NCBI RefSeq assembly: GCF_900167415.1
Contig: NZ_FUWU01000002.1
Span: 1-64,000, forward strand
From: Fibrobacter intestinalis
GTDB taxonomy: Bacteria; Fibrobacterota; Fibrobacteria; Fibrobacterales; Fibrobacteraceae
DNA length: 64,000 nucleotides
Direction of reading: 5' to 3'
Shown: in pieces, positions 3,087 through 12,781 of the stretch
Numbering within the stretch: position 1 is the stretch's first letter
Layout of the letters: each line of letters starts with the position of its first letter
Made by a program: the position numbers and the translations under genes
Notes under the pieces: generated by a model
What the model saw: the letters and a program-made list of their open reading frames with translations, nothing else
Databases searched by the model: none
What the model was told of the DNA's origin: nothing

Positions 3087-3143
3087 AGTTGAAAGAAAAT
3101 GAATTTGCAGAACAGGATCTTCTATTTCGGAGCTTTTTAAGCA

Positions 3144-3688
3144 AAAAAAGACCGGATAAACCGGTCTTTTATGGAGCTAAGGGATGGTGCGCTATTCGCG
3201 CCTCCCTTCGGGACGCAACACTTTGCGTTGCGCTCGTCACGCGTTCCCCTAGGTCGCGCGTTCCGTCGAACTCCAAAATCCCATGTCAGGAGTTCTCATC
3301 TCCTTGAAAAGCAAAAAAAGACCGGATAAAACCGGTCTTTTATGGAGCTAAGGGATGGTGCGCTATCCGCGCCTCCCTTCGGGACGCAACACTTTGCGTT
3401 GCGCTCGTCACGCGCTTCCCTAGGTCGCGCGTTCCGTCGAACTCCAAAATCCCATGTCAGGAGTTCTCATCTCCTTGAGATGTAAAAAAAAAAGACCGGA
3501 TAAACCGGTCTTTTATGGAGCTAATGCGATGGTGCGCTCTTCGCGCCTCCCTTCGGGACGCAACACTTTGCGTTGCGCTCGTCACGCGCTTCCCTAGGTC
3601 GCGCGTTCCGTCGAACTCCAAAATCCCATGTCAGGAGTTCTCATCTCCTTGAAATGTAAAAAAAAAGACCGGATAAACCGGTCTTTTA
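3144..3688. repeat. Tandem ~170-bp satellite copying tRNA-Ala 3' end and terminator
   Basis: Three near-identical units, then a fourth start that runs into the real tRNA-Ala. The terminator core ACCGG recurs at 3151, 3321, 3495 and 3668 (periods 170, 174, 173). Each unit holds, in order on the plus strand: an A run; the hairpin AAGACCGG-ATAAA-CCGGTCTT; TATGGAGCTAA (the tRNA-Ala 3' acceptor sequence plus its downstream flank, minus-strand sense); a GC-rich segment with several hairpins; and AGGAG-TTCTCAT-CTCCT, which mimics a tRNA T-arm (5-bp stem, 7-nt loop) in plus-strand sense. No protein coding is supported. This region explains the 650-bp gap between aqpZ and the tRNA. Confidence 0.9.
3658..3687 (-). 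terminator. Terminator of tRNA-Ala
   Basis: On the minus strand AAGACCGG (3685-3678) and CCGGTCTT (3672-3665) form an 8-bp stem followed by a U run. It begins a few bases after the tRNA 3' end. The same hairpin recurs in each upstream satellite unit. Confidence 0.85.
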
Positions 3689-3762
3689 TGGAGCTAAGGA
3701 GATTCGAACTCCTGACCCCAACGCTGCCAGCGTTGTGCTCTACCAAACTGAGCTATAACCCC
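3689..3762 (-). tRNA. tRNA-Ala (anticodon GGC)
   Basis: Read on the minus strand, acceptor GGGGTTA pairs with TAGCTCC and contains the G3-U70 pair that identifies tRNA-Ala. The anticodon stem CAACG/CGTTG encloses CTGGCAG, anticodon GGC. The T-arm is AGGAG/CTCCT with loop TTCGAAT. The discriminator is A and no CCA is encoded. Several satellite units lie immediately downstream of its 3' end. Confidence 0.95.
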
Positions 3763-10823: not shown

Positions 10824-12781
10824 AAATGTTGATGCTCCTTCTCTCGTTTTTGACGGTTTCTGCGTTTGCGGCAGAAATCAAGAGCGTGGACTATTCTTGC
10901 GGCGCAAAGGATTGTTCGCTTTCTTTCCAGTTTGCTTCGGCGAAAAACCTGCCGGATTTTTTCCAAAAGTACGATGCCAAAAAACAAACTCTTGTTGTTG
11001 GATTTTCGGACACCAGGGTGTTTTCGGGCGAAGTTTCGCTTCCCGTGAGCACTTCGGCAGAAGGGATTCGCAGCGTCCGCGTGTTTACCGACAATTCTTT
11101 TAAAGTGCCTCTGTTGCAATTTGAATTTGCCGTCGGTTCGGCGATTCGCAGCGATAAAAACCCGGTCAGTTTGTCCAAGGGAAAAATTTTTGTCATTTCT
11201 CTTCCCAAAACAAAGGAAGCTTCCTGGTCGTTGAAAAAATTGGCGGCTCAGGCTAAAAAGGATTCCGTGAACTTGAATGCGGAAAAGGCAAAATTATCGG
11301 AAAAAGACAAAAAGCAGAAAGCTGATAGTCTGAAGCAAGTTAAATCGGACAGCGTCGCCGCCGCGAAAAAGGCCAAAGCCGACAGCGTGAAGCAGGCGAA
11401 AGAAGCGGCATTGAAAGCACAAAAGGCGAAGCAGGACAGCCTTGCTGCAGCGAAAAAGGCCAAAGCCGACAGCGCGAAGCAGGCGAAAGAAGCGGCATTG
11501 AAAGCGCAAAAGGCGAAGCAGGACAGCCTTGCTGCAGCGAAAAAGGCCAAAGCCGACAGCGCGAAGCAGGCGAAAGAAGCGGCATTGAAAGCGCAAAAGG
11601 CGAAGCAGGACAGCCTTGCTGCAGCGAAAAAGGCCAAAGCCGACAGCATCAAGCAAGCTCGTTTGGATAGTATTCAGGAAGTCAAGGAATTGGCAAATAA
11701 AAAGGTGGTTTCCGCATTGATTGAAGGCGTCCGGGAAATGACCGGCATCCAAGGCGAAGGAATTGAACAGTTCCGCATCACCACGCAGGAAGAAATCCAG
11801 CTTTCGATGGTCAAAGGACCGGATAAATTTTCGATTGTCTATGTTTCTGTTCCTGGCCCTAAAAAAACGCCGCTATTCAATGTGACGGCGAGCAATATCG
11901 TCAAGTCGGTCACTTGGGTTTCATCGGGGCTTCGCATCCAGTTGCAAAAAAATGTGCATCCGATGATTCTCGTTTACAAGGGTTCTTTGATTTTCCAAAT
12001 TTCCAGCGCCAGCAAACTCGCCGGCTTTGTGTGCTACCAGGCAAAACCGGAAGGCGTCTATGTTCGTAAATGGGTAAATCCTTCTCAAAAAACGGAATCT
12101 TTTGCGGAATTTTCCAAAGAGATGGACACGGAGAAAAAGAAAATTGTCAGCGTCGCTCAATCGTTTGGACTTCGTCCCGTTTCTCGCAATTTGATTGTCG
12201 TTGCCGAATCGGCTCCCTTCCTCGCGACTCCCGAAGAAAATGCCCAGATTCTGGAAACGCTGGAGTTTGGTGCCCGCTTGGAAGATATCGAATTGAATGG
12301 ACTCTATCATAAGGTGCGCCTCGGTTCTAAGGTCGGCTACATCAATCGTCGGGCGGTTTCTTTCCCAGATGAACTTTCCGCAGTCCAGTCCGAGCGTTTG
12401 AAGCAGATGGCGATGGAGCAGGGCGGAACGCTGGATTCCAACTCGGTGCGTTTTGACCATCCTATTGAAGAACGGGTTTCTTATAGTTCGTTTGGCCGCC
12501 GGGATCCTTTTGTGGAAATCAAAGGCCTGATGGAAGAGGGCATCAACATCGATCAGGTGGAGCTTGTCGGCATCATCTGGGAATCGGATATTCCGATGGC
12601 GATTCTTGTGGATGCCAAAAATCCGAATGTCTCTTACACGGTCAAAGAAGGAGACCGCATTTTGAACGGCAAGGTTTTGAAAATCACGCAGACCGATGTG
12701 CTGTTTTTATTGCAAGAATTTGGGGTAAGTCGTAGATATTCCATGAGCCTGCCCGATCAATATGGGAGTAATGCCAAATGA
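10820..12781 (+). CDS. pilP: PilP-like protein fused to AMIN-like, Lys/Ala-repeat and SH3 regions
   Basis: 653 residues, far longer than ordinary PilP (about 170-180). Order: signal peptide 1-17 (cleavage after AFA); a beta-rich region of about 100 residues resembling an AMIN domain; a highly charged Lys/Ala helix at about 140-295 built on perfect 29-residue repeats; a second beta-rich, possibly AMIN-like region; an SH3b-like segment at about 455-515; and a PilP domain at about 555-650 (RRDPFVEIKGLM, VELVGIIWE, VKEGDRILNGKVLKI). No lipobox is visible, whereas most PilP proteins are lipoproteins. It lies between pilO and pilQ with 4-bp overlaps on both sides, which supports a PilP role. The long helix could span the periplasm; SH3b and AMIN regions could bind peptidoglycan. 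These roles are inferred. Confidence 0.85.
   Translation: MKMLMLLLSFLTVSAFAAEIKSVDYSCGAKDCSLSFQFASAKNLPDFFQKYDAKKQTLVVGFSDTRVFSGEVSLPVSTSAEGIRSVRVFTDNSFKVPLLQFEFAVGSAIRSDKNPVSLSKGKIFVISLPKTKEASWSLKKLAAQAKKDSVNLNAEKAKLSEKDKKQKADSLKQVKSDSVAAAKKAKADSVKQAKEAALKAQKAKQDSLAAAKKAKADSAKQAKEAALKAQKAKQDSLAAAKKAKADSAKQAKEAALKAQKAKQDSLAAAKKAKADSIKQARLDSIQEVKELANKKVVSALIEGVREMTGIQGEGIEQFRITTQEEIQLSMVKGPDKFSIVYVSVPGPKKTPLFNVTASNIVKSVTWVSSGLRIQLQKNVHPMILVYKGSLIFQISSASKLAGFVCYQAKPEGVYVRKWVNPSQKTESFAEFSKEMDTEKKKIVSVAQSFGLRPVSRNLIVVAESAPFLATPEENAQILETLEFGARLEDIELNGLYHKVRLGSKVGYINRRAVSFPDELSAVQSERLKQMAMEQGGTLDSNSVRFDHPIEERVSYSSFGRRDPFVEIKGLMEEGINIDQVELVGIIWESDIPMAILVDAKNPNVSYTVKEGDRILNGKVLKITQTDVLFLLQEFGVSRRYSMSLPDQYGSNAK
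11363..11647 (+). repeat. Perfect-period 87-bp tandem repeat inside pilP
   Basis: The phrase AAAGCCGACAGC recurs at 11375, 11462, 11549 and 11636, an exact 87-bp period giving three full 29-residue units plus a partial one. Units 2 and 3 are almost identical at the DNA level, implying recent expansion. The encoded unit is Lys/Ala/Gln-rich (KADSAKQAKEAALKAQKAKQ...), predicted helix or coiled coil. Confidence 0.95.

Follow-up and report, generated by a model that had tools for sequence, protein, structure and literature searches.

Introduction

Known since 1978, tRNA-linked repeats (TLRs) are to our knowledge still without an agreed function. At the tyrT locus of Escherichia coli (RtT, rttR), a 178-bp repeat is present in 3.1 copies, and every copy closes with the final 19 bases of tRNA-Tyr. 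E. coli has 22 tRNA-linked repeats at ten loci; RrA, RrB and RrF are transcribed by terminator read-through, processed and bound by Hfq and CsrA; beyond this, no function has been assigned to the repeats (PMC8144298). For the rRNA-linked TLRs, conservation has been reported in Enterobacteriales (PMC8144298), and Pasteurellaceae have been reported to contain RtT homologues (PMC4986893).

Here, we analyzed an array behind tRNA-Ala(GGC) in a 64-kb stretch of Fibrobacter intestinalis DNA, referred to as the window. It shares with the E. coli tyrT TLRs about 3.1 tandem copies, a period of about 175 bp, a position directly behind a tRNA, a copy of the tRNA 3' end at the end of each unit and a fold of helices P1 and P2 followed by hairpins. 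The motif order GATGAGAA...TTCGAC...CCCGAAGGG is common to the tyrT and window units, and the tyrT units (GATGAGAAG...GGTTCGAC...CCCGAAGGG) keep the order of the window plan.

Results

Array layout behind tRNA-Ala(GGC)

A repeat scan of the window revealed a tandem array at 3143-3699 with a period of 171, 3.2 copies and 94% matches. The array lies directly 3' of tRNA-Ala(GGC) and contains three units, one of 171 and two of 173 bp. In the tRNA sense they are located at 3686-3514, 3513-3341 and 3340-3170, followed by a fourth terminator (3170-3146). Pairwise identity between units was 94-97%. The features were as follows.

3689..3762, minus strand: tRNA-Ala(GGC), host gene of the array (ARAGORN; Rfam tRNA, 64 bits)
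3663..3687, minus strand: intrinsic terminator of tRNA-Ala, copy 1 (terminator scan, repeats)
3519..3654, minus strand: TLR-like RNA element, tRNA-proximal unit, P1 weakened (R1 E=1.1e-3, R2 E=1.9e-7, fold)
3514..3522, minus strand: tRNA 3' end copy TTAGCTCCA, closing the proximal unit (sequence)
3490..3514, minus strand: terminator copy 2 (terminator scan)
3345..3480, minus strand: TLR-like RNA element, middle unit (R1 E=5.3e-5, R2 E=1.6e-8, MFE z=-4.0)
3341..3351, minus strand: tRNA 3' end copy CCTTAGCTCCA, middle unit (sequence)
3316..3341, minus strand: terminator copy 3 (terminator scan)
3174..3309, minus strand: TLR-like RNA element, distal unit (R1 E=1.2e-4, R2 E=4e-8)
3170..3180, minus strand: tRNA 3' end copy CCTTAGCTCCA, distal unit (sequence)
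3146..3170, minus strand: terminator copy 4, array end (terminator scan)

In the tRNA sense, each unit runs from the terminator through AAGGAGATGAGAACTCC..., GGAGTTCGAC and a GC-rich core to the last 9-11 bases of the tRNA. The exact copy of the tRNA end is 9 nt in the tRNA-proximal unit and 11 nt in the middle and distal units, and the tRNA's own terminator comes next in all three. These results bore out a sequence-only reading of the locus, which had described three units of ~170 bp repeating the tRNA 3' end and terminator. The terminator scan detected four terminator-like sites of the array repeat on the tRNA strand, and the site scan detected no promoter-like site in the array region. The further suggestion, that single units may give rise to RNAs with a tRNA tail and a terminator of their own, was upheld as a possibility.

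No other copy of the unit was found at the DNA level in the 3.29-Mb genome, and an exact search of the genome contigs with a 34-bp core gave no match. An assembly artefact, considered in the sequence-only reading, is unlikely because the units are not identical, the contig is 126 kb long and, at the same tRNA, other species have arrays of their own. Elsewhere in the window, a tandem repeat at 11347-11647 (period 87 bp, or 29 codons; 3.5 copies) possibly represents in-frame repeats of an Ala/Lys-rich protein.

A conserved fold on the tRNA strand

On the tRNA strand, each unit was predicted to form a structured RNA of ~136 nt with a closing helix P1 that includes the copied tRNA 3' end, a tandem-GA-flanked P2 and further hairpins including CCCGAAGGG. 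Model-free MFE folding of the window units gave P1, P2, the CCCGAAGGG hairpin and further hairpins, with z=-4.0 for the middle unit. Covariance models were constructed from 12 (R1) and 123 (R2) elements, all from outside Fibrobacterota; the model set includes Rfam-called RtT loci of Pantoea, Serratia, Escherichia, Kluyvera and Nitrococcus. On the 64-kb window, R2 detected exactly the three array units (E 1.6e-8, 4e-8 and 1.9e-7) and R1 the same three (E 5e-5 to 1e-3), scores that were helped by ~23 preselected positions, as the database pattern was partly built from Fibrobacteraceae units. R1 also recovered the E. coli tyrT TLRs (E 1e-13 to 1e-11), none of which was among its members.

The covariation score was 0.385 compared to 0.134 for shuffled controls in a MAFFT alignment that was not fitted to structure. 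In the structure-fitted alignments, the scores were 0.469 against 0.122 outside the phylum and 0.496 against 0.137 in the Fibrobacteraceae set, and on all three alignments covariation was far above both the shuffled and the slid controls. Compensatory changes, both between phyla and inside Fibrobacteraceae, thus preserve the multi-helix fold on the tRNA strand. The 5' strand of P1 formed 7.6 of 9 pairs with its own copied tRNA end and 6.1 with swapped ends. In two window units P1 was retained, but bulged following a change of the tRNA-end copy, and the proximal unit had lost most of P1. In Fibrobacteraceae the sense fold was 3.8 kcal/mol more stable, compared to 1.1-1.7 in shuffles, and outside Fibrobacterota the strand bias was not above shuffles. 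Counts of G-U versus A-C gave a weak strand signal only, with noisy values for P1 and the outer P5 pair.

The sequence-only reading had placed a T-arm mimic in the opposite sense at the start of each unit. The segment AGGAG-ATGAGAA-CTCCT is present, but all five pairs can form in just 17% of the Fibrobacteraceae elements and 38% of the others. A better reading takes this segment for the 5' strands of helices P1 and P2, which pair with the copied tRNA end and with GGAGTTC, respectively.

Distribution across bacteria

A search pattern was drawn from the motifs shared by the Fibrobacteraceae and E. coli units. At least 117 stretches of the database matched, against ~2 expected from an estimate based on base composition. 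The matches listed came from Gamma-, Beta- and Deltaproteobacteria, Paenibacillus, Chlamydiae, Verrucomicrobia, Auribacterota and Fibrobacter. Most of them were located at most 90 nt behind a tRNA (Ser, Arg, Lys, Pro, Gln, Glu, Tyr, Phe or Met), or were tandem copies there, and in most a copy of the same tRNA's 3' end then followed. The core could have proved widespread without any tRNA association; the opposite was seen, as 96 of the 123 model matches outside the phylum and 56 of the 58 in Fibrobacteraceae outside the window sat behind a tRNA, either as the first copy or as a tandem one.

TLR-like elements were also observed far beyond the described TLR groups, in Bdellovibrionales (L198), Chlamydiae (L171, L249), Auribacterota (L235, L247) and Paenibacillus (L146, L166, L181, L184, L206). 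The Paenibacillus elements are at tRNA-Arg(TCT), and their 3' side looks shorter.

Distribution within Fibrobacteraceae

R2 matches were found in 64 of 111 Fibrobacteraceae genomes, which is a lower bound because this family-wide scan lost the window's own units at its initial filter. The matches were mostly behind tRNA-Pro, -Ser and -Gly, and the loci that were fetched lay behind tRNA-Pro(CGG), Ser(CGA), Gly(CCC), Arg(CCG) and Ala(GGC), with copy numbers ranging from 1 to 6. Synteny around tRNA-Ala is conserved in the genus, and the array is absent from the other five genus genomes. When the unit was searched as DNA in six genus genomes, only terminator-like matches were obtained outside its own genome. 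Decayed remnants with GAGAACTCCTGG lay directly behind the tRNA-Ala terminator in G005 (L010), G002 (L011) and G004 (L012), and nothing of the array was found at tRNA-Ala in G001 and G003. The array locus is therefore not essential, since genus mates hold only remnants or nothing.

Arrays or units of the same plan were present behind tRNA-Ala(GGC) in another genus (G020) and in genus g2 (G085-G088). Their cores differ in sequence from those of the window, and the order GATGAGAAC - GGAGTTCG - CCCG(A/T)AGGG hairpins - tRNA 3' end - terminator is kept; the G020 unit is without the GATGA part. The motif GAACTCCTGACATGGG was also searched in the 111 genomes, and its matches beyond the own-genome and G020 units were rejected as unrelated sequence without an adjacent tRNA copy.

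The Fibrobacter tRNAs other than tRNA-Ala that bear TLRs (L301-L320) mostly have anticodons starting with C (CGG, CGA, CCC, CCG), which read NNG codons. One locus (L319, G125:C38:76900-78100) holds six tandem elements in 1.2 kb. The host genome contains a second, divergent TLR-like element at a contig start (L300, G000:C77:94-259; R3 E=1.3e-6). The sequence ahead of it resembles the end of another unit plus terminator, and L300 is likely a broken array behind an unassembled tRNA.

CsrA, Hfq and GGA hairpins

CsrA was not found in the host genome (99.95% complete; positive controls detected) or in any tested genome of g1, g2, g4, g8 and g10, and was found in tested genomes of g6, g7 and g11; this search covered 36 genomes, and the status of most g2 genomes and of G034 was taken from genus mates. 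Hfq was not found in the host genome or in any of 20 family genomes, with E. coli and other controls detected. Two or more GGA-loop hairpins occurred in 20 of 21 elements of CsrA-positive genera and in 2 of 82 of CsrA-negative genera (shuffled sequences, 4.9%; non-Fibrobacterota elements, 42/123), and at least one in 21/21 and 25/82, respectively; this genus-level correlation is a lead and not proof, because the genera are few, the g6 elements are not tRNA-linked and the E. coli tyrT elements are without such loops although E. coli has CsrA. The GGA sites are of the classic type (GGCACAGGAUGUGCC). Among the window units, the middle unit has GGA in its loops and the other two have no GGA hairpin. 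These results point to CsrA binding as one of the uses of the TLR scaffold, and as one that cannot apply in this host.

Elements resembling the TLR core, with two CsrA-type hairpins, several per genome and no tRNA found nearby, were observed in G010, G019 and G034 (L321-L325, L327-L332, L335-L337). They may form a scattered family of CsrA-binding RNAs in a single Fibrobacteraceae genus.

Origin of the units

Median core identity was 0.93 between tandem copies, 0.76 between elements at the same tRNA in different genomes and 0.66 between different tRNAs of one genome, against a background of 0.61. The cores thus follow the tRNA locus and not the genome, which argues for vertical descent with local tandem duplication. 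Neither copies elsewhere in the genome nor cores common to the loci of one genome, as expected of a mobile element, were found, except for the divergent G000:C77 element and one case in G015.

Discussion

The array very probably consists of three tandem structured-RNA genes of the TLR/RtT type, presumably expressed by read-through, multiplied by recombination and serving a role other than CsrA binding in this host. RNA polymerase leaking through the tRNA-Ala terminator would transcribe one or more units. Because each unit ends in its own terminator, expression would fall off stepwise, following tRNA (growth-rate) transcription. The tRNA-like 3' tail would close the fold and probably provide a tRNA-type site for 3' trimming, and recombination between the repeats of tRNA end plus terminator may have multiplied and homogenised the copies. 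The hairpins of relatives that have CsrA resemble CsrA decoys. The present host, in which neither CsrA nor Hfq was found, has mostly lost the decoy sites and retains the scaffold, so that the RNA most likely acts with another partner.

The sequence-only reading had proposed serial insertion of a minimal element as one origin. tRNA 3' ends are common integration sites, the family is found behind many different tRNAs, and the Ser- and Arg-linked cores of G015 are 82% alike, as would suit a mobile element that targets tRNA 3' ends in the manner of integrase or REP-type elements. However, no DNA-level copy of the unit was found elsewhere in the genome, the host's own terminator is present in the tandem copies, which are nearly identical, and core identity tracks the tRNA locus; serial insertion is therefore unsupported and very unlikely. 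A functionless array might also have arisen if the tRNA 3' end, the terminator and a hairpin-rich spacer had been duplicated in tandem and kept by slippage and gene conversion, and the homogenised units within arrays, the lack of an array in genus mates and the copy numbers of 1 to 6 agree with it. Such a neutral origin is nevertheless unlikely, as neutral satellite DNA would not be expected to show compensatory base-pair changes, which are seen both between phyla and inside the family, or to keep one fold at many tRNAs.

We also considered whether the hairpins act as DNA, in the form of cruciforms or single-strand palindromes like REP/BIME sequences, and regard this as quite improbable. Orientation is fixed relative to the tRNA with the terminators on the tRNA strand, Fibrobacteraceae show the sense-strand bias, and E. 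coli RrA/B/F are transcribed and processed (PMC8144298). These observations stand against the low G-U content and near-perfect Watson-Crick stems, a sense strand no more stable outside Fibrobacterota than shuffles predict, and the rtT-like segments reported inside BIMEs (PMC2965389). It is extremely improbable that the units are sponge RNAs binding CsrA and Hfq in this host, as proposed for RrA/B/F, which do bind both proteins (PMC8144298). The GGA in the loops of the middle unit would agree with such a role, but two of the three units have no GGA hairpin, and the host of such an RNA should encode CsrA and Hfq, neither of which was found in this nearly complete (99.95%) genome; the sponge reading would require a CsrA or Hfq that escaped recognition.

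The same covarying fold in Fibrobacterota, with matches in Paenibacillus, Chlamydiae, Verrucomicrobia and Auribacterota, indicates a widespread RNA family that reaches far beyond the relatives of E. coli, and a deep alignment of TLR-type RNAs is now supplied. The presence of the elements in hosts with no detectable CsrA or Hfq speaks against these proteins as the general explanation of TLRs, and the correlation of CsrA with paired GGA hairpins within one family makes the CsrA-decoy idea directly testable. We tentatively propose that TLRs may be a wide bacterial RNA family whose members bear CsrA-decoy hairpins in hosts with CsrA and shed them upon loss of CsrA; in those Fibrobacteraceae that have neither CsrA nor Hfq, the scaffold might have outlived its protein partner and serve another tRNA-coupled function.

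Comparison with known systems

No tested Fibrobacteraceae unit, window units included, reached the gathering threshold of Rfam RtT (RF00391), nor did the tested elements of Verrucomicrobia, Chlamydiae, Paenibacillus and the deltaproteobacteria; the model scores enteric and some other gammaproteobacterial loci. Sub-threshold Rfam matches to sroD and asX2 were without support and are not RtT.

The window array differs from E. coli tyrT in its tRNA (Ala, not Tyr), in the intrinsic terminator within every unit, in a core without DNA-level match, in a host where neither CsrA nor Hfq was found and in a tRNA-end copy of 9-11 nt instead of 19. Copies of 18-19 nt are stated for the E. coli TLR members, and longer copies such as AATCTCCTTAGCTCCA occur in related arrays; we take that length to be particular to the E. 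coli set and claim membership for the window units in the wider TLR family only. RrA, RrB and RrF of the E. coli rRNA operons are unlike the window units in being linked to 5S rRNA, present once per operon and bound by CsrA and Hfq. CsrB/RsmY-type CsrA sponges have GGA hairpins like those of the TLR-like elements in CsrA-positive Fibrobacteraceae genera, whereas in the window units these are largely missing and the host has no detected CsrA. As in TLRs, the window units lie directly downstream of a tRNA gene on the same strand, end in an exact copy of the upstream tRNA 3' end followed by its terminator, and have the conserved fold of P1 with the tRNA end, tandem-GA-flanked P2 and hairpins with CCCGAAGGG, as indicated by covariation and by R1 and R2, from which they were held out. 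The window locus is a distant member of the TLR/RtT type that Rfam misses.
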